From: Gluconacetobacter johannae
GTDB taxonomy: Bacteria > Pseudomonadota > Alphaproteobacteria > Acetobacterales > Acetobacteraceae
Direction of reading: 5' to 3'
Length of the DNA: 35,542 nucleotides
Assembly (NCBI RefSeq): GCF_014174305.1
Contig: NZ_JABEQH010000029.1
Coordinates: 1 to 35,542 of the forward strand
Position numbers and translations under genes: made by a program. This document shows, piece after piece, positions 14,848 through 23,440 of the stretch (position 1 is its first letter; every line of letters begins with the position of its first letter). A model generated the notes under the pieces. That model was given only the letters and a program-made list of their open reading frames with translations, was not told the origin of the DNA and searched no databases.

Positions 14848-16181
14848 GGCGTCCGCCACAGAACAGCCAGCGCGGGCTGGATTGGCTGAACTTCTTTGTC
14901 GCGAACCTTCAGGCCGCCTTCGGCTCGTTCATCGCGGTGTATCTGACCGGGGCGCACTGGACCCAGGGCCAGATCGGCTTCGCGCTCAGTATCGGGTCGA
15001 TCACCGCCATGGTCAGCCAGGTGCCCGCCGGCATCATGGTCGATCGCCTGCGCGACAAGCACCGGGTGGCGTTCCTGTCGATCCTGGCGGTGATCTTTTC
15101 CTGCCTGCTGCTGGCGCTGTTTCCCCAGCAACTGCCGGTGGCGGTGGCCGAGATCCTGCACGGGCTGGCCAGTTGCACGCTCAACCCGGCGATCAGCGCC
15201 ATCACGCTGTCGGTCGTGGCGACGCAGGTCATGCGCTCGAGCGGCACGGGGGCGGGCCTGCTGGGCGAGCGGTTCGGCCGCAATGCCAGCTTCGCCGCCG
15301 TGGGCAACGCCATCGCCGCCGGCCTGATGGGGGCGGTGGGCTATTGGGTGTCGGCCCAGGCCACGTTCTTCCTGGGGGCGGCGATGGCGGTGCCCGGCCT
15401 GCTGGCGCTGCTGCTGATCGAACGGTCCGAACCCCCGGCCTCGGTGAACACCGCGGCGATGGCCGAGGGCGAGCGGGCGCCCCGCGCGAAGGGACGGATG
15501 TGGGACCTGCTGCGGGACCGGCGCCTGTTCGCCTTTGCGGTGTGCGTGGCGTTCTTCCACCTGTCCAACGCCGGCATGCTGCCGCTGGCGGCCGGGCAGG
15601 TGACCCAGAAGGCCGGCAACGTGGCCGAGATCGTGATCGCCGCCTGCATCCTGCTGCCGCAGCTGGTGGGCGCGGCGCTGTCGCCGCATATCGGCCGGCT
15701 GGCGGAAACGGTGGGCCGCCGGCCGGTCATGCTGGTGACGTTCGCCGCGCTGCCGCTGCGCGGGGCGCTGCTGGCGACGACCAGCAACCCCTATCTGATC
15801 GTGGCGATCCAGATGCTGGACGGGCTCAGTTCGGCATCGTTCGGGGTGATGATGCCGCTGGTGGCCGCCGACCTGACCCGGGCCAGCGGGCGGTTCAACC
15901 TGTGCATGGGCATCCTGGGCTTGGCCATGGGGGCGGGGGCCAGCTTTTCCACCACCCTGGCCGGGACGGTGGCCGACCGGTCGATGGCGCTGGCCTTCCT
16001 GATGCTGGCCGGGGCCGGGCTGGCCTGCGTCATCCTGGTCTGGCTGCTGATGGGCGATACGTCGCGGCCGGACGGGGCGCGGTGGTCGCCGTTCCGGCGC
16101 GCCGCCCGGCCCCGTCGGTCATTCAACGATCAAGCCAGGCGGGAACCGGCAGGCTCCGTTCCCGCAGGAACGTCGGATTGA
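14844..16181 (+). CDS. MFS transporter
   Basis: This 445-residue permease has about twelve hydrophobic segments. The N-terminal half includes FVANLQAAFGSFIAVYLTGA, and the loop between helices 2 and 3 holds a family-typical VPAGIMVDRLRDKHRVAF. The second half starts after a hydrophilic stretch at about 200-230 (AEGERAPRAKGRMWDLLRD). The substrate is not evident; related proteins are annotated as drug or small-molecule exporters. I chose the GTG with GAAGG 9 bp upstream, which gives MRRPPQNSQRGLDWLNFF. No ATG lies before the first membrane helix in this frame. The last 19 codons overlap the end of the convergent cysteine synthase gene by 59 bp, so the hydrophilic C-terminus is probably variable. 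Confidence 0.85.
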   Translation: MRRPPQNSQRGLDWLNFFVANLQAAFGSFIAVYLTGAHWTQGQIGFALSIGSITAMVSQVPAGIMVDRLRDKHRVAFLSILAVIFSCLLLALFPQQLPVAVAEILHGLASCTLNPAISAITLSVVATQVMRSSGTGAGLLGERFGRNASFAAVGNAIAAGLMGAVGYWVSAQATFFLGAAMAVPGLLALLLIERSEPPASVNTAAMAEGERAPRAKGRMWDLLRDRRLFAFAVCVAFFHLSNAGMLPLAAGQVTQKAGNVAEIVIAACILLPQLVGAALSPHIGRLAETVGRRPVMLVTFAALPLRGALLATTSNPYLIVAIQMLDGLSSASFGVMMPLVAADLTRASGRFNLCMGILGLAMGAGASFSTTLAGTVADRSMALAFLMLAGAGLACVILVWLLMGDTSRPDGARWSPFRRAARPRRSFNDQARREPAGSVPAGTSD

Positions 16182-17160
16182 ACAGCTTGGACTGATACCG
16201 GCTGCCGCCGTCCGACAGGATGGTGACGATCCGGTGCCCCGGCCCCATCCGCCGGGCCACCCGGATGGCGGCGGCGACGTTGATGCCCGACGAACCGCCG
16301 ATGGACAGCCCTTCGTGGATCAGCAGGTCGTAGATCAGCTCCAGGGCTTCGGGGTCGGGGATCCGCTCGGCGTCGTCGATGGCGACGCCTTCCAGATTGC
16401 CCGGCACCCGCGACTGCCCGATCCCCTCGGTGATCGACGAGCCGGTGATGCTCAGGTCGTCGGTCTTCACCCAGCCGTAGAGGCCCGAGCCCTCGGGGTC
16501 GGCCAGGACGATGTGCGGCCGGGCCCGGCCGGCGGCGCGGGCGCAGTCCTCCAGCCCCAGCGCGACACCGGCCAGGGTCCCGCCCGTCCCGCACGCGCAG
16601 GTGAAGGCGTCGATCCGGCCGTCGGTCTGCGTCCAGATCTCGGGACCCGTGCTGGCCCGGTGTCCTTCGCGGTTCGCCAGATTGTCGAACTGGTTCGCCC
16701 AGACGCCGCCGATCTCCTCGGCCAGCCGGCGCGAGACGTGGACGTAATTGCCGGGGTCGCGAAAGGGCTTGGCCGGGACCAGCCGCAGGTCCGCGCCGAT
16801 CATGCGCAGGAAATCAATCTTCTCCTGGCTCTGCGTCTCGGGCATGACGATGACCGAGCGATAGCCCCGCGCGTTGGCCACCAGGGTCAGGCCGATGCCG
16901 GTATTGCCCGCCGTGCCTTCCACCACCACGCCGCCGGGCGTCAGCACGCCGCGCCGTTCGGCGTCGTCGATGATCGCCAGCGCGGCGCGGTCCTTGACCG
17001 ACCCGCCCGGATTCATGAATTCGGCCTTGGCCAGGATCTCGCACCCCGTCGCCTCGGACGCCCGCCGCAGGCGGATCAGCGGCGTATGGCCGATCGCGGC
17101 GGTCATGTCGGACGACGACGTGGTCCATCCGACAGCGGACGGATTTGCACTTTCGGCCAT
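16123..17160 (-). CDS. cysK: Cysteine synthase (O-acetylserine sulfhydrylase family)
   Basis: This PLP enzyme makes cysteine from O-acetylserine and sulfide. The 345-residue protein has the PLP lysine (Lys56) in MNPGGSVKDRAA, the substrate loop EGTAGNTGIGL, and the PLP phosphate-binding CGTGGTLAG. Near the C-terminus it has SIGGSSGINVAAAIRV. The NPGGSVKDR form is shared with cystathionine beta-synthase-like members, so a CBS-type or alternative sulfur activity is possible. The start at ATG 17160 has AGAAGG upstream. The gene is divergent from a rhodanese gene (100 bp), which also handles sulfur, and its 3' end overlaps the MFS gene. Confidence 0.88.
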   Translation of the reverse strand: MAESANPSAVGWTTSSSDMTAAIGHTPLIRLRRASEATGCEILAKAEFMNPGGSVKDRAALAIIDDAERRGVLTPGGVVVEGTAGNTGIGLTLVANARGYRSVIVMPETQSQEKIDFLRMIGADLRLVPAKPFRDPGNYVHVSRRLAEEIGGVWANQFDNLANREGHRASTGPEIWTQTDGRIDAFTCACGTGGTLAGVALGLEDCARAAGRARPHIVLADPEGSGLYGWVKTDDLSITGSSITEGIGQSRVPGNLEGVAIDDAERIPDPEALELIYDLLIHEGLSIGGSSGINVAAAIRVARRMGPGHRIVTILSDGGSRYQSKLFNPTFLRERSLPVPAWLDR

Positions 17161-17260
17161 AAGGCAGCACCTTCTCTGGATCGTGCGTGGCGGTCGGGCC
17201 GCCGGGTGCGCCCTCGCCGGGACGAAGGCGCGCGATTGGCGCACAATGTGCATTATTGCG

Positions 17261-17680
17261 ATGGGAAACAAGATGATCGAGGACGTAACGCCCACCGGAG
17301 CCTGGGCGGCGCTGGACGAGCGGCCGCAGGCGCAACTGGTCGATGTCCGGACGGATGCCGAATGGATGTTCGTCGGGCTGCCGGACCTGTCGGCCACCGG
17401 CAAGCGGGTCCTGCCGATATCGTGGCAGGGCCTGAACGGCCAGCCCAACGCCCGATTCGTGGAGCAGCTGACCTCGGCCGGCCTGACGCCGGAGAACGAG
17501 ATCTATTTCATCTGCCGGTCGGGCGCGCGCAGCCATTCCGCCGCCGTGGCGGCGCGGGAGGCGGGATTCGCGCATGTCTTCAACGTCGCCGGCGGGTTTG
17601 AAGGGCCGCCCGACACGGACGGCCATCGCGGCGGCGTCGCGGGATGGAAGGCCGACGGCCTGCCCTGGCGCCAGGGCTGA
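17261..17680 (+). CDS. Rhodanese-like sulfurtransferase
   Basis: A single-domain rhodanese of about 139 residues. It has the entry motif LVDVRTDAEWMFVGLPDL and the active-site loop FICRSGARS, whose Cys carries the persulfide. It also has the C-terminal AGGFEGPPDTDGHRG, typical of the GlpE/PspE-like branch of alphaproteobacteria. Such proteins move sulfane sulfur to thiols or cyanide. The start is uncertain: ATG 17261 (MGNKMIEDVTP) is used here, ATG 17273 (MIEDVTP) is equally good, and ATG 17246 is also in frame. The adjacent divergent cysteine synthase suggests a shared role in sulfur assimilation. Confidence 0.88.
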   Translation: MGNKMIEDVTPTGAWAALDERPQAQLVDVRTDAEWMFVGLPDLSATGKRVLPISWQGLNGQPNARFVEQLTSAGLTPENEIYFICRSGARSHSAAVAAREAGFAHVFNVAGGFEGPPDTDGHRGGVAGWKADGLPWRQG

Positions 17681-17694
17681 CGGCCCGCCTGAAA

Positions 17695-17737
17695 ACGCCT
17701 TTTGCCGGCGCGCCGATCGGATGGCCGGCAAAGGCGT
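17695..17737. terminator. Bidirectional terminator between rhodanese and cowN
   Basis: ACGCCTTTTGCCGGC (17695-17709) pairs with GCCGGCAAAGGCGT (17724-17737) with one bulged T. Read on the minus strand the stem is followed by TTTTC, so it fits best as the cowN terminator. It lies between the convergent rhodanese and cowN genes and could serve both. Confidence 0.7.
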
Positions 17738-17751
17738 GTTCGGCGCGGACG

Positions 17752-18027
17752 CTACATGCAGAGAACTTCCAGTTCCTCCAGGAGAAGGAGGGTCTCGGTG
17801 TCGTCCAGTTCTTCCAGCAGGTCGCGCAGGGTCGGCAGGAAATTATGCAGGACCCTCAGATCGTCCAGCCCCTGCTGGTGGCAGATGGACCGCTGCTTCA
17901 GGAAATAGGGCCAGAAAGGACTCGTCTCCTGATCGAAATGGGGCTGAAGCGCCGCGAAGATGCGGTCGGCGCGTTCCTCCCAGTTCAAGTCCTTGAAGGT
18001 CAGATAACGATCGAACTGCTCTGTCAT
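17752..18027 (-). CDS. cowN: CowN, protects nitrogenase from carbon monoxide
   Basis: CowN is a small soluble protein that lets nitrogenase keep working in the presence of CO; it was found in Rhodospirillum rubrum and the Gluconacetobacter diazotrophicus protein has been studied with its nitrogenase. The 91-residue protein has the family pattern: MTEQFDRYLTFKDLNWEERA, SPFWPYFLKQR in the middle, GLDDLRVLHNFLPTLRDLLE, and an acidic, Leu-rich C-terminus ending in Cys-Met. ATG 18027 is chosen, with GGGG about 8 bp upstream; a TTG two codons earlier is less likely. It is transcribed away from a CooA-like CO-sensor gene, and the gap holds a palindrome that fits the CooA operator. No nif gene lies nearby. 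The presence of cowN implies that the organism fixes nitrogen. Confidence 0.9.
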   Translation of the reverse strand: MTEQFDRYLTFKDLNWEERADRIFAALQPHFDQETSPFWPYFLKQRSICHQQGLDDLRVLHNFLPTLRDLLEELDDTETLLLLEELEVLCM

Positions 18028-18094
18028 ACTCAACCCCAGCTTGCAGGCCTCAAATACATGAGGGCACGTCCTAGTGCCTTTTGGCGGTCGTGTC

Positions 18095-18110
18095 TGTCAG
18101 ATGGGTGACA
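18095..18110. promoter_or_regulatory. Palindromic operator between cowN and the CooA-like gene
   Basis: TGTCA-GATGGG-TGACA is a perfect inverted repeat (extended by one more pair, C and G). It closely resembles the CooA site of R. rubrum as I recall it, TGTCA-N6-CGACA. Its centre is 75 bp from the cowN ATG and 109 bp from the regulator ATG. A cowN start site near 18061 would place it at about -41.5, the usual class II position. The same bases also satisfy TGT-N10-ACA, the NifA activator consensus, so nitrogen control is an alternative. No -24/-12 promoter with correct spacing is present. Confidence 0.65.
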
Positions 18111-18144
18111 GTCGGGCGGAGGGCCTTGGACGCCACGGCCATAA

Positions 18145-18173
18145 TTGACAGTCTTTTTCGTCTTCCGCACCAT
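18145..18173 (+). promoter_or_regulatory. Possible promoter of the CooA-like gene
   Basis: TTGACA at 18145-18150 is a perfect -35 hexamer. At 17-bp spacing the -10 is CACCAT (18168-18173), only three of six matches, which would suit an activator-dependent promoter. It is placed 39-67 bp before the chosen ATG. Confidence 0.35.
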
Positions 18174-18211
18174 TGCGCGATGGTAGCGTTGCAGCCTGGT
18201 TGCCACCGGAC

Positions 18212-18877
18212 ATGATCCCGCAGTTTCCCCTTCTCGACCTGATCGACAGCGAGGAAGGTGCGGGGCTGCGACGTATCTTTCATGAGAAACGTCTGGAGGC
18301 GGGCGCTCTTCTTTGCGCGCCGAGCGGAGAAGACCAGGTTTTCATCGTAAGATCGGGGCGCATCAGGGTCTATTTCGCCACGCCCGAGCAGGAGCTCAGC
18401 CTTGGCTATCTGACCGCGACCGACATGTTCAGCACGCACACCCGCGCCTTGCTCCAGGCCACGCAGCCGACCGAACTTCTGGTTGCGCGCCGGGAGGTGC
18501 TGGAGCGCCAGCTTGGCCACTATCCTGCGTTGCAGGCGACGATCGTGCGGGTGCTCGCCATGGTGCTGAGCCAGGCGATGACCTTGATCGAGGACCTGGC
18601 CTTCCATCCGGTCAAGCGACGGATCGCGCGTTATCTTCTACGCAGCGCCGCGCGCCACAAGGTCCCCGTCGCCGTGGACAGCCTGATTCTGGTCGAGCTG
18701 AGCATGGAGGAAATCGCGGCCCTGCTGGGGACGACGCGGCAGACGGCCTCGACCGAACTCAATGCCATGATCCACGCCGGCGGCATTGCCCGGCAGGGGC
18801 GTCGGCATATCCGCATCTGCGATCCCGAGCGCCTTTATCTGTGGGCCGGGGCCGATCATACGGCCGGTATCCAGTAG
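18212..18877 (+). CDS. cooA: CooA-like haem/CO-sensing Crp/Fnr regulator
   Basis: A 221-residue Crp/Fnr-family activator (R. rubrum CooA has 222). From ATG 18212 the N-terminus MIPQFPLLDLIDSEEGAGL aligns without gaps to that of CooA. The effector domain has VFIVRSGRIRVYF and LGYLTATDMFSTHTRALLQA, where CooA has DMFCMHSG. His76 therefore matches the ferrous-haem ligand His77, while Ser74 replaces the ferric ligand Cys75. Pro2 of CooA, the other axial ligand, is Ile here with Pro next. The C-helix (about 104-131) keeps small hydrophobic residues at the CO pocket and IEDLAFHPVKRRIA matches CooA's IEDLMFHDIKQRIA. The helix-turn-helix reads MEEIAALLGTTRQTAST, almost the CooA reading helix. There are no FNR-type cluster cysteines. 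A TTG start at 18173 is possible but fits the family worse. Divergent cowN is the obvious target. Confidence 0.75.
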   Translation: MIPQFPLLDLIDSEEGAGLRRIFHEKRLEAGALLCAPSGEDQVFIVRSGRIRVYFATPEQELSLGYLTATDMFSTHTRALLQATQPTELLVARREVLERQLGHYPALQATIVRVLAMVLSQAMTLIEDLAFHPVKRRIARYLLRSAARHKVPVAVDSLILVELSMEEIAALLGTTRQTASTELNAMIHAGGIARQGRRHIRICDPERLYLWAGADHTAGIQ

Positions 18878-18887
18878 ACCGGCCGCG

Positions 18888-19784
18888 TCAGTCGCGGCCG
18901 GGCGGTTCGGCGTCGGCGTCATAGAGGATCTGCAGCACCGCGCACCAGGGGTAGCGTGGGTCGTAGCTGTGGCCGGTCGGGTCGGCCAGACGCCCGTCCG
19001 CCCCCACCGGGACATGGGTCAGCGTCACCGCGTCGTCGACATTGCCGCCGACGATGCTGATCTGATGGCCGAAGGGCGGTCCGTTCTGGTTGGTGGCGAC
19101 CACGATTCCGCAATGGGCGGGAAAGCCGTAGGTGGTGGGCAGGTCGGCGAACTGGACGGCCTTGCTGGCGCCGCGTCCGACGCAGATCAGATCGCCCAGC
19201 AGGGGGGTGTAGGTCGCGGGATCACGCGCGCGCACGCCGCTTTCGGTGCCGGCGGCGGCGGCGTTGATGTAGGTGGAATGGTTGGGGGAGTAGGCGAACC
19301 GGTCGTTCGCCCCGGCCACCCGCATCACATAGGAAATGAAGGCCGCCGACCAGGCATAGAAGCCGTCATGCACGTAATCGGTCAGGCGTCCGCTCGCGTT
19401 GTGCTTGCCGGTCCAGCCGACCTCGGTCTCCGACGGGTCCTGGCCGATCCACCAATATTCGCCGATGCGTTGCCACAGGCCCGGCGCGCGCTCGGGCTTG
19501 ACGCTGGCCGAGTGGGCTTCGGGACGCAGTTCGGGGTCGTCGTCGTCGACCGGCTGGCCGAACAGCCGCCATTCCCGCAGGGCGATGGCCGCCACGTCCT
19601 GCCGGGTGAAGGGTTCGAAATTCCGCGTAGCGAAATCAGGGACGTGATCGTCCACCGCCAGCGGCCCCTGTCCGGCGGCGTATTGCGCCACCGGCGTGCG
19701 TGCCGGCGGGTGGGGCGAGACAGGCTGGGCGGCGCAGGCGGCCAGCAACGCCAGAGGCGCCAACGATACGATCTTGCGCGGCAT
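18888..19784 (-). CDS. DUF2272-family lipoprotein
   Basis: The 298-residue protein starts MPRKIVSLAPLALLAACAAQ, a clear lipobox (LLAAC, Cys17). A Pro-rich linker leads to a domain of about 200 residues with YVHDGFYAWSAAFISYVMR, FAYSPNHSTYI, LLGDLICVGRG and PAHCGIVVATN. This is the DUF2272 pattern. The conserved Asp-Cys and His residues are reminiscent of NlpC/P60- and CHAP-like cysteine hydrolases, so a cell-wall or amide-cleaving role is possible, but no function is established as far as I know. AGGAG lies 6-7 bp before the ATG. It converges on the CooA-like gene with only 10 bp between the stops. Confidence 0.8.
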   Translation of the reverse strand: MPRKIVSLAPLALLAACAAQPVSPHPPARTPVAQYAAGQGPLAVDDHVPDFATRNFEPFTRQDVAAIALREWRLFGQPVDDDDPELRPEAHSASVKPERAPGLWQRIGEYWWIGQDPSETEVGWTGKHNASGRLTDYVHDGFYAWSAAFISYVMRVAGANDRFAYSPNHSTYINAAAAGTESGVRARDPATYTPLLGDLICVGRGASKAVQFADLPTTYGFPAHCGIVVATNQNGPPFGHQISIVGGNVDDAVTLTHVPVGADGRLADPTGHSYDPRYPWCAVLQILYDADAEPPGRD

Positions 19785-20104: not shown

Positions 20105-21085
20105 ATGTCAGTGGAAACCCTTGCCATTGCCGGCATCCCCTTTCCCATCTCGCGCATCGCGCTGGGAACCTGGGCGATCGGCGGCTGGATGTGGGGCGGT
20201 CCCGACGACCGCAAGGCGATCGCCACGATCCATGAGGCCCTGGATCTGGGCATCAACCTGATCGATACCGCGCCGGTTTATGGATTCGGCCATTCGGAGG
20301 AGGTGGTGGGCCAGGCTCTGGCCGGACGCCGCGACGGCGTCGCCATCGCCACCAAGGTCGGGCTGGACTGGAAGGACGGCAAGCCGTTCCGCAATGCCAC
20401 GCCTGCGCGCATCCGCCAGGAGATCGAGGACTCGCTGCGTCGGCTGCGTACCGACCGCATCGACCTGTACCAGGTGCACTGGCCCGACCCGTCGGTCCCG
20501 ATCGACGACACCGCGCGCGAGCTTGAACGCCTGCATCGCGCGGGCAAGGTGCTGGCGCTGGGGGTCAGCAATTTCTCGGTCGCGCAGATGGAGCTGTTCC
20601 GCTCGGTCGCCCCGCTGGCGGCGATCCAGCCCCCCTATAACCTGTTCGAGCGCGAGATCGAGAAGGACATCCTGCCCTGGGCGGCCGCGCAGGGCCTGGC
20701 GGTGCTGGCCTATGGGCCGCTGTGCCGGGGATTGCTGTCGGGCCGGATGACCGCCGAAACCGTGTTCGGCGCCGACGACCTGCGCGGGGCCGACCCCAAG
20801 TTCCGCGCGCCGCGCTTCACCCAGTACCTGGCGGCCGTGTCGGCCTTGCAGGATTTTGCCCGCCAGCGCGGCCGCACGATCCTGGCGCTGGCGATTCGCT
20901 GGGTGCTGGACCAGGGGCCGACGATCGCCCTGTGGGGGGCGCGCAAGCCCGAGCAGATCGCAGGCATCGACCAGGCCTTCGGCTGGACCCTGTCGGCGGA
21001 CGACAAGGCGGAGATCGACCGGATCCTGAACACCTGCATCACCGACCCGGTGGGGCCGGAATTCATGGCGCCGCCGGGCGCCTGA
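20105..21085 (+). CDS. Aldo/keto reductase
   Basis: A 326-residue NADPH-dependent reductase of the AKR superfamily ((beta/alpha)8 barrel). The catalytic set is visible: Asp in LIDTAPVYGFGHSEE, Tyr five residues later in VYGFG, Lys in IATKVGLDW, and His in YQVHWPDP. Further on are LGVSNFS, PYNLFEREIEKDILPWAA and the C-terminal cofactor region ALWGARKPEQIAGI. The close relatives I recall are YajO/Tas-like reductases and AKR11-12 types acting on aldehydes or sugars. The ribosome site AGGAAGGAAGAACC is strong. It stands alone, with a structured leader before it and a large hairpin after it. Confidence 0.9.
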   Translation: MSVETLAIAGIPFPISRIALGTWAIGGWMWGGPDDRKAIATIHEALDLGINLIDTAPVYGFGHSEEVVGQALAGRRDGVAIATKVGLDWKDGKPFRNATPARIRQEIEDSLRRLRTDRIDLYQVHWPDPSVPIDDTARELERLHRAGKVLALGVSNFSVAQMELFRSVAPLAAIQPPYNLFEREIEKDILPWAAAQGLAVLAYGPLCRGLLSGRMTAETVFGADDLRGADPKFRAPRFTQYLAAVSALQDFARQRGRTILALAIRWVLDQGPTIALWGARKPEQIAGIDQAFGWTLSADDKAEIDRILNTCITDPVGPEFMAPPGA

Positions 21086-21452: not shown

Positions 21453-22040
21453 TCAAACGGAATCGAAACAGACGGACAGGCTGCGGACCCCTTGTGCGCC
21501 CCGGATCAGGACGCCCTGGATGTCGGCGGTGGCGGACGGGCCGCTCATCAGCACGCCGTAGCGGGCGGTGCGGAATTCGGGCCGCTGATAGGCCGTGTGC
21601 AGGTTCGCCGTCAGCTGCGCCGGGTCCAGCAGCACGACCAGATGCTGGGCCAGGTGCGCCAGGGCGTTGAGATGCAGTTGCGCCTCGCTCAGGAAGATCG
21701 ACCCGGTTTCGGCGATGCCGAAGGCGGCGCGGACCACGGCGACGTCCACCGGGTCGGCCGCCTGGGCGTTGGGCAGATCCTGCACCGGCACCGCGCCGTC
21801 CACTCCGGGCACCGCCGAGCAGATCAGGCGCGCGTCGGGGAAACGGCGGGCGATCGCGGCGGCGAGCGGCTCGCCGGGCGCGCGTTCCAGCAGGTCGCCG
21901 CCCAGCAGGCGCAGGCCGGCGACGAAACGCGCCTGTCCCGCGTCGAGGTCGCCCAGCATCACGGGCGGCGGCAGCGGGTGCGCGGCCGGGTCGGGCCGGT
22001 TGCGACGCAGCGCGTCCAGGATGGTGTCGCGCGCGTTCAT
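21453..22040 (-). CDS. lutC: LutC, lactate utilisation protein (LUD domain)
   Basis: LutC (YkgG) is the third subunit of the LutABC iron-sulfur lactate oxidation complex. The 195-residue protein starts MNARDTILDALRRNRPDPA and has the LUD-domain core: FGIAETGSIFLSE, a stretch LAHLAQHLVVLLDPAQL, and a C-terminal SGPSATADIQGVLIRGAQG. Its ATG overlaps the lutB stop (ATGA at 22037-22040), the usual mark of a coupled operon. Together with LutA and LutB it converts L-lactate to pyruvate in many bacteria. The LUD domain itself has no metal-binding motif visible here. Confidence 0.9.
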   Translation of the reverse strand: MNARDTILDALRRNRPDPAAHPLPPPVMLGDLDAGQARFVAGLRLLGGDLLERAPGEPLAAAIARRFPDARLICSAVPGVDGAVPVQDLPNAQAADPVDVAVVRAAFGIAETGSIFLSEAQLHLNALAHLAQHLVVLLDPAQLTANLHTAYQRPEFRTARYGVLMSGPSATADIQGVLIRGAQGVRSLSVCFDSV

Positions 22041-23440
22041 CGTCCGGTGTCCGCCGTGCCGTTGCCTGACCGGGTGCGCCGGTACCAGGCGTGGAAGGTT
22101 TCCTCGACCGGATGCGGCAGTTCGCGCTGCTTGCCCCACGGGTTCAGCCAGCTGTACAGCGCAAAGCGCGGCAGCGTGCCCAGCGCCGTTTCGGCGCCCG
22201 CGATGGCTGCGCGATACAGGCGGGGTTGACCCATCAGCTTGCCGGCCATGTGCATGATCTCGCGCTTCACGAAGGGCATCTGGTGATGGTCCACCAGCAC
22301 CCGCCGCCATTTGTAGAGTTGGTCGTGAATGTCGATCCGCACCGGGCAGACATTGGTGCAACTGCCGTTCAGGGTCGAGGCGAACGGCAGGGTGCTGTAT
22401 TTCCGTTCGTTGAAGGTCGGGTCGATGATCGCGCCGATCGGGCCGGAATAGACCGCGCCGTACGACAGGCCGCCCGACCGGCGATAGACCGGGCAGGTGT
22501 TCATGCACGCGCCGCAGCGGATGCATTTCAGCGACGTCCAGAAATCCGCCATGCCCAGGCGCGCCGACCGGCCGTTGTCCACCAGGATGACATGCATCTC
22601 CCCGCCATCCTGCGGGCCACGGAAATGGGTGGTGTATTGCGTGATCGGCGACCCCAGGGCGCTGCGCGACAGCATGCGGACGAACACGCCCAGGTCGGAC
22701 ATGCGCGGCACCAGCCGTTCGATGCCCAGGGTGGCGATATGCACCCCTGGCACGGTGGCGCTGAGGTCGGCATTGCCCTCGTTGGTGCAGACGACGAAGG
22801 TCCCGGTCTCGGCCACCGCGAAATTGGCCCCGGTCATGCCGGCGTCGGCATGCAGGATGACGGGCCGCGCCGCCTGCCGCTGCGCCTCGGCCAGCTGGCG
22901 CGGGTCGTCGGCGTTGGGGTCGGTGCCGTAATGCGTCGCGAACACCCGCGCCACGTCGCCCGTCAGCTTGTGCACCGCCGGCACGACGATGTGGCTGGGT
23001 AGCTGGTCGTCCAGTTGCTGGATGCGTTCGCCCAGGTCGGTCTCGGTCACCGTGATGCCCCGCGCCGCCAGGTAGGGGCGCATGTCGCATTCCTCGGTCA
23101 CCATCGACTTGCTTTTAATCAGCGTCGTCGCGCCGCGCGCCTGCAGGATCTCGGCGACGATGCGGTTGTGTTCCGCGCCGTCGCGCGCCCAGTGGACATG
23201 GATGCCGTTGCGGGTCGCGTTGCGCTCGAACTGCTCCAGATAGTCCGGCAGGTTCGCCAGCGTGTGTTCCTTGATCTGCGACGCCAGGGTCCGCAGTTCC
23301 TGCCATTCGGGCAGCAGGTGCATCTGGGCGTCGCGCTTCTGCCGCATGTCCCACAGGCGTTCGTCGTGGAACGCCAGGTGCGGCGCGTCGGCGATGAAGG
23401 CCGCCGCCGCGCCGGCATGGTCGATACGCTTGTCCTTCAT
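22037..23440 (-). CDS. lutB: LutB, iron-sulfur protein of lactate oxidation
   Basis: The 467-residue LutB (YkgF) has an N-terminal LUD-like region (MVTEECDMRPYLAARGITV, DAGMTGANFAVAETGTFVV). A ferredoxin-type section follows with LKCIRCGACMNTCPVYRRS and the later CTNVCPVRIDIHDQLYKW. The two Cys clusters hold [4Fe-4S] centres. A C-terminal helical segment ends with NPWGKQRELP. The start is an ATG overlapping the lutA stop (ATGA at 23437-23440). It passes electrons from lactate toward the respiratory chain, probably at the membrane via quinone; that last step is from family knowledge. Confidence 0.92.
   Translation of the reverse strand: MKDKRIDHAGAAAAFIADAPHLAFHDERLWDMRQKRDAQMHLLPEWQELRTLASQIKEHTLANLPDYLEQFERNATRNGIHVHWARDGAEHNRIVAEILQARGATTLIKSKSMVTEECDMRPYLAARGITVTETDLGERIQQLDDQLPSHIVVPAVHKLTGDVARVFATHYGTDPNADDPRQLAEAQRQAARPVILHADAGMTGANFAVAETGTFVVCTNEGNADLSATVPGVHIATLGIERLVPRMSDLGVFVRMLSRSALGSPITQYTTHFRGPQDGGEMHVILVDNGRSARLGMADFWTSLKCIRCGACMNTCPVYRRSGGLSYGAVYSGPIGAIIDPTFNERKYSTLPFASTLNGSCTNVCPVRIDIHDQLYKWRRVLVDHHQMPFVKREIMHMAGKLMGQPRLYRAAIAGAETALGTLPRFALYSWLNPWGKQRELPHPVEETFHAWYRRTRSGNGTADTGR

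Follow-up and report, generated by a model that had tools for sequence, protein, structure and literature searches.

A divergent cowN and cooA-type gene pair in Gluconacetobacter johannae with a predicted CooA-dependent promoter facing cowN

The locus described here raises the question of which gene is served by a single regulatory palindrome lying between two divergent genes, and through which regulator. In the stretch of Gluconacetobacter johannae DNA that was analysed (35,542 bp, a complete contig from a genome of 3.63 Mb; hereafter the window), cowN and a cooA-type gene face away from each other with an ATG-to-ATG gap of 184 bp, and the palindrome TGTCAGATGGGTGACA (TGTCA-N6-TGACA) lies between them (Table 1). 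The original prediction had read this arrangement as a shared operator at which CO is sensed directly for cowN. The arrangement itself is borne out by coordinates, profile matches and PDB matches alike, and the identities of cowN and of the CooA-type gene are firmly established.

Table 1. Features of the cowN and cooA region, in window coordinates
Feature	Position	Strand	Description
cowN	17752..18027	minus	N2-fixation sustaining protein CowN, 91 aa; ATG at 18027
Predicted -10 element TAGGAC of cowN promoter	18068..18073	minus	centre 32 bp from box centre; identical in G. azotocaptans
Predicted -35 element CAGACA	18091..18096	minus	overlaps cowN-side half of box; 17 bp to -10
CooA box	18095..18110	minus	TGTCACCCATCTGACA read towards cowN; centre 18102.5
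Conserved block	18142..18168	plus	fully identical in window and G. azotocaptans (two-sequence alignment); upstream of cooA
TGGTAGCGTTGCAGCC	18181..18196	plus	GG-N10-GC at -31 of cooA ATG; sigma54-like relic, very weak at best
cooA-type CO-sensor / Crp-Fnr activator	18212..18877	plus	ATG 18212, stop 18877; 221 aa from ATG

Gene identities, genome context and layout

CowN scores over both curated cut-offs, at 74.3 bits for PF20543 (cut-off 27) and 97 bits for the equivalog NF033689 (cut-off 48), with profile matches that span the whole protein (residues 3-92 and 6-92 of 92 translated). It is 96% identical to CowN of G. azotocaptans and 73% identical to that of G. diazotrophicus, the CooA proteins of the window and G. 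diazotrophicus being 42% identical. For the regulator, the best PDB sequence match by phmmer is R. rubrum CooA (1ft9), with residues 1-213 aligned on 1-214 (E 5e-38), followed by 2fmy (E 2e-33), 2hkx (7e-33), 6cpb (2e-21), 4k8f (1e-19) and 7ets (4e-15); C. hydrogenoformans CooA is also among the best matches, and 4k8f is labelled Crp/Fnr, yet its aligned letters agree with R. rubrum CooA. The regulator resembles CooA end to end, ahead of other Crp/Fnr proteins, and its AlphaFold model (pLDDT 83.9; domain placement unsure given a pTM of 0.54) returned CooA for all of the top four Foldseek chains, with 1ft9_B at TM 0.77 and 37% identity.

In R. rubrum CooA the Cys at the second position before the axial His serves as a ferric haem ligand, the corresponding Cys of C. 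hydrogenoformans CooA is not known to be a haem ligand, and the N-terminal Pro2 ligand of the CooA haem comes from the other subunit. His76 of the regulator aligns with the axial His77 of R. rubrum and is invariant in 17/17 aligned rows of cowN-linked CooA proteins. Two positions ahead of this His, the same 17/17 rows have Ser (FSTH; window 18428-18439) instead of the Cys of the two solved CooA proteins (FCMH in R. rubrum, FCTH in C. hydrogenoformans), and a CooA protein from a further locus, L070, has FVTH, with Val rather than Ser or Cys. This Cys was not treated as CooA-defining, because it is not known to act as a ligand in C. hydrogenoformans. Through this uniform Cys-to-Ser change the cowN-linked CooA proteins seen here stand apart as a subgroup, and they may not share the redox behaviour of the CooA proteins of CO oxidation. 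Haem and CO binding by the regulator are predicted from homology. Its N-terminus, which varies among CooA relatives, reads M-I-P from the ATG at 18212 and would read M-P-P from an in-frame TTG at 18200, the context of which (TTG-CCN-CCN-GAC-ATG) is kept in G. azotocaptans. TTG 18200 could be the true start, in which case the intergenic gap would be 172 bp instead of 184 bp.

The genome contains nifH over the cut-off and four PF00148 (Oxidored_nitro) matches on contig C7, together with one CooA match. The further expectation that the sensor has no CO dehydrogenase to serve was upheld, as the genome search gave no CooS match and no CoxL over the cut-off (best 111 bits, cut-off 991). Across 397 genomes of the bacterial family, nifH over the cut-off was found in 19, and the 10 genomes that carry cowN all fall within these 19. 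A search with the CooA alignment of 29 family genomes (the 19 nifH genomes and 10 same-genus genomes without cowN) found a strong match (E below 1e-90) in seven, beside cowN in all seven. The absence of any CooS match and of CoxL over the cut-off, together with the constant position of strong CooA matches beside cowN, fits a CO sensor that is retained solely to protect nitrogenase, although it may have other targets.

Cysteine synthase-type enzyme (16123-17304), DUF2272 protein (18888-19784), aldo/keto reductase (20105-21085) and LUD-domain iron-sulfur protein (22040-23434) genes neighbour the pair. Of 17 window proteins that were scanned, cowN alone hit a family whose name relates to nitrogen fixation or CO. 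Crp-like matches of lower strength (4e-34 to 9e-16) were present in the family genomes G143 (two more), G337 and G395. The more distant CooA-like match in G143 (C1:5220959-5221537, L058; E 4e-34) lies in a 611-codon open frame and shows no F-x-x-H motif where it aligns; the same genome also has a cooA-cowN pair and several nifH-type genes. Mobile or viral spread of cowN was considered and set aside, as no CowN relative was confirmed in viral contigs and none was found in plasmids. The genome-contig scan picks up only CowN relatives with two short peptides in common, and locus L066 (21 bits, under the cut-off) was left out of CowN counts.

In the set of loci compared, which includes the window and from which duplicates of one genome were removed, cooA lies beside cowN in 18 loci and is absent from the fetched flank (1 to 10 kb per side, as opposed to the genome) in 13. 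The cooA-adjacent loci are tandem, cooA before cowN, in 16/18 cases, and divergent only in the window and in G. azotocaptans LMG 21311 (L016), which has 93% DNA identity over about 20 kb, an identical divergent layout, box and -10, and no material difference. Class- and phylum-wide searches added seven cowN loci over the cut-off, one of them tandem (L070); in the other six no cooA lies within about 1.5 kb, and one of these six is on a short contig. The divergent layout is unusual and new here, whereas the gene pairing itself was already known; among the literature matches listed, covering titles, the starts of abstracts and few subscription papers, none dealt with a divergent layout or with class II geometry at cowN.

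In gene trees, the window CowN falls within the Acetobacteraceae set (96/95 with 23 rows, 93/91 with 17 rows), and the window CooA groups with L020, L022 and L023 (80/87). A common clade of the window and Acetobacteraceae CooA proteins was not rejected (p-AU 0.206), and a regulator swap is not claimed; the converse test for CowN, placing the window with L020, L022 and L023, led to rejection (p-AU 0.007) in a tree that contains long branches.

The palindrome and its geometry towards cowN

The box is the sole TGTC-N8-GACA in the 35.5 kb window, against 0.37 expected by chance, or about 0.002 for the intergenic stretch by a rough scaling from that figure. Genome-wide, TGTCR-N5-YTGACA gave three matches and a backward-read control four, such that the bare palindrome is not enriched; the box stands above chance because of its position and its conservation in relatives. 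An exact TGTC-N8-GACA starts about 67-83 bp before cowN in 17/18 cooA-adjacent loci, with one mismatch in L023, in agreement with the expectation of a CooA-type site before cowN, and occurs in 0/13 loci without cooA in the fetched flank, where one-mismatch versions are present in L024 (-166) and L032 (-80). The two other genome-wide matches to TGTCR-N5-YTGACA were considered as further CooA targets and set aside, as they lack the GAC extension and the total is no more than that of the control. The extended pattern TGTC-N8-GACAGAC has two matches in the genome (control 0), at cowN and at a NifA-type site in the nif cluster.

Aligning 17 rows of cooA-adjacent loci on the box (L012 dropped) revealed a signature that extends beyond the palindrome on the side of cowN. 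The pattern TGTCR-N5-CTGACAGAC is common to the 17 rows (with C for the first T in L023), TGACAGAC is invariant in 17/17, and GAC directly follows the box in 17/17. The -10 score peaks with the hexamer centre at +32.0 bp from the box centre, a peak reached by 0/5000 shuffles both in the full alignment and with 10 genus-level representatives; the best single A column holds in 15/17 rows (0/5000 shuffles) and in 9/10 rows of the reduced set (6/5000 shuffles). The rows are related and not independent, and the run with 10 representatives removes this kinship only in part. Two of the 17 rows, L021 and L039, depart from [TC]A at the -10 offset. L070, which was fetched later and not used in finding the pattern, has a cooA gene ahead of cowN and shows the box, the GAC and a -10 hexamer TATACT at +32.

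At class II activator promoters the activator box overlaps the -35 element and the -10 element keeps a fixed spacing to the box centre, about 32 bp. Judged by its predicted elements, the combination of box, -35 and -10 in the window has class II geometry facing cowN and not cooA, although its -10 element is weak and a sigma70 consensus scan of 17650-18950 called nothing. What is new here is the apparent membership of the site in a one-directional cowN promoter with class II geometry, and by the same signature the box appears built to drive cowN.

The cooA side of the intergenic region

If CO-bound CooA also activated its own gene from the same site, the box would be a bidirectional operator with a positive loop, as the divergent genes with a single palindrome between them might suggest. 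The conserved block upstream of cooA is in keeping with this, since it includes TTGACA at 18145-18150, a possible sigma70 -35 element of a cooA promoter with no promoter-scan call. Towards cooA, however, the hexamer at the class II -10 position reads GCCACG in the window and CCGTGG in G. azotocaptans, and the half-site is flanked by GTC and GTT, respectively, in place of GAC, which leaves room only for other geometries at cooA. Beyond the two divergent loci, the sequence before cooA contains an exact TGTC-N8-GACA only in L007 and a one-mismatch version in L039, and in 16/18 loci the site cannot serve a cooA promoter because it lies downstream of cooA. A bidirectional operator is therefore considered unlikely in the window. 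The shared operator of the original prediction is supported for cowN, through CTGACAGAC and the -10 at +32, and not for cooA, because the conserved promoter signature points only at cowN.

The L007 site (685-700; Acetobacteraceae) is a second TGTC-N8-GACA, TGTCGCAAACCCGACA, upstream of cooA and without the GAC and -10 signature; autoregulation of cooA is possible at that locus. The wider stretch 18142-18187 is nearly identical between the window and G. azotocaptans; in it TGACAGTC recurs, 40 bp away from the copy in the box, and there is also a short CCAT...ATGG inverted repeat that was seen by eye and not reported by the repeat finder.

A sigma54 site lies at -31 before cooA in 6/7 rows of the G. 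diazotrophicus, Komagataeibacter and Acetobacter group. In the window and in G. azotocaptans only TGG...GC is present at that offset and a sigma54 site is not recognisable. In the window copy, TGGTAGCGTTGCAGCC, 5/11 sigma54 consensus positions differ (by eye) at the same offset as the sites of the G. diazotrophicus group. This coincidence of offset was noticed after looking, TGG-N10-GC occurs at 0.3% of positions, and the coincidence vanishes if TTG 18200 is the real start.

Nitrogen control, known systems and the predicted switch

Sigma54 sites before cowN were sought with the pattern TGGCAC-N5-TTGCW, allowing up to two mismatches, in the 320 bp upstream. Such a site lies 45-63 bp before cowN in 10/13 loci without adjacent cooA (all except L006, L029 and L041), and these 10 loci have no exact palindrome, L024 and L032 having the one-mismatch versions. 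Among the 18 cooA-adjacent loci it occurs only in the window (-178) and in L039 (-60). The window site faces cowN at 18190-18205 with two mismatches, at a chance level of about 0.05 per such stretch; the 200 bp behind it hold no TGT-N10-ACA, it has more than three mismatches in G. azotocaptans, and no site with up to three mismatches lies between box and cowN except the box itself. A sigma54 promoter in the cowN direction was therefore rejected, the site lying behind the box and at chance level. The promoter rule suggested by these comparisons is that cowN beside cooA has a predicted CooA box of sigma70 class II type and cowN without adjacent cooA mostly a putative sigma54 promoter.

In the Rhodopseudomonas and Blastochloris loci (L024, L026, L027, L028, L030, L032, L034, L035 and L038) the cowN sigma54 site lies near -46, and an activator site is not obvious there because no TGT-N10-ACA is present within 320 bp. 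In the 40 kb around the nif genes of the window's genome there are four sigma54 sites that are perfect or one mismatch away, in a scan that kept near-perfect sites only and is silent on how weak a working site may be; three of the four have TGT-N10-ACA 68-77 bp upstream, and the fourth has none within 200 bp. In that cluster, the TGTC-N8-GACAGAC match (G000 contig C7:147033-147051, L067) lies about 76 bp before a one-mismatch sigma54 site. It fits both a NifA site and the extended CooA pattern, and cross-talk between CooA and NifA at nif promoters is therefore conceivable.

The closest described system is that of G. diazotrophicus, in the same genus, for which an algH-cooA-cowN cluster with a CooA site has already been published (Medina et al. 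2021, PMC8047169). It resembles the window in having a cooA-type gene beside cowN, a CooA-type palindrome about 60-80 bp before cowN and a CooA protein with the same Ser in place of Cys. It differs in that cooA and cowN are in tandem with cooA preceded by its own sigma54 site, in that algH was not among the 17 window proteins scanned (a set smaller than the full list of ORFs), and in that blastn found no flanking DNA common to the two outside cooA and cowN. According to the same report, G. diazotrophicus CowN keeps nitrogenase turning over in the presence of CO, nitrogen limitation raises cowN 30-fold with no CO added, and CO induces cowN in nitrogen-free medium and has no effect with ammonium, so that CO is not the sole gate of cowN in that species. 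As cited there, R. capsulatus and R. rubrum require cowN to grow on N2 when CO is present, and in R. capsulatus the gene is controlled through CooA and NifA. In Rubrivivax gelatinosus, as in the window, cooA adjoins cowN; strain IL144 and R. benzoatilyticus are described as having both genes without anaerobic CO metabolism genes, and R. gelatinosus CBS itself also oxidises CO (PMC4257681). The module in the window is thus known in kind, and is another example of it.

An alternative reading takes the palindrome for a NifA upstream activator sequence, with NifA and sigma54 driving cowN directly and CooA playing a minor part there. The box is an equally good, exact match to NifA TGT-N10-ACA, the NifA-type sites of the nif cluster look like it (e.g. 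TGTCGGACATCGGACA), and Medina et al., who report nitrogen-dependent cowN expression in G. diazotrophicus, suggest that NifA and CooA sites overlap and that RpoN controls cooA (PMC8047169). Nevertheless, direct NifA control is improbable given the lack of a convincing sigma54 site facing cowN in the window and of sigma54 sites in all but two of the cooA-adjacent loci, the missing exact palindrome in the 10 cooA-less loci that do have such sites, and the conserved sigma70-type -10 at fixed spacing. The promoter rule likewise argues against the NifA action at the overlapping palindrome put forward in PMC8047169, and suggests that in G. diazotrophicus sigma54 may drive cooA, with cowN following by read-through and CooA, without NifA at the palindrome.

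A very doubtful variant, in which the box lies 86 bp before the degenerate GG-N10-GC at -31 of cooA, has one 16-bp palindrome used by two regulators, leftwards by CooA and sigma70 towards cowN and rightwards by NifA and sigma54 towards cooA; if true, inversion of an older tandem cooA-cowN module would have brought the responses to CO and to nitrogen starvation together on one site. That the regulator is a CooA relative with a changed ligand (redox, NO or none) acting on cowN without CO sensing, as the Ser near the axial His and the uncertain N-terminus might allow, is highly improbable in view of the invariant axial His, the CooA fold with its identity to 1ft9_B, the position beside cowN in all seven genomes with a strong match among the 29 searched, and the CO response of cowN in G. 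diazotrophicus, whose CooA has the same Ser (PMC8047169).

The window therefore very probably encodes a CO-responsive protection switch in which CooA-CO activates cowN from the box through sigma70. In this switch, a haem-containing CooA dimer would bind CO, the CO-bound form would bind the palindrome and activate sigma70 RNA polymerase at the class II cowN promoter, with the -35 over the cowN-side half-site, and the CowN made would lower the affinity of nitrogenase for CO, as in the literature on a relative. Activation at the predicted cowN promoter is what we infer for the regulator.

The divergent layout excludes read-through from cooA into cowN. The route through sigma54, cooA and read-through looks broken or replaced in the window, and it is therefore predicted that nitrogen gating of cowN may be weaker here than where that route is intact. 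With neither a recognisable sigma54 site nor read-through, the divergent G. azotocaptans type would provide a natural test of the nitrogen route.
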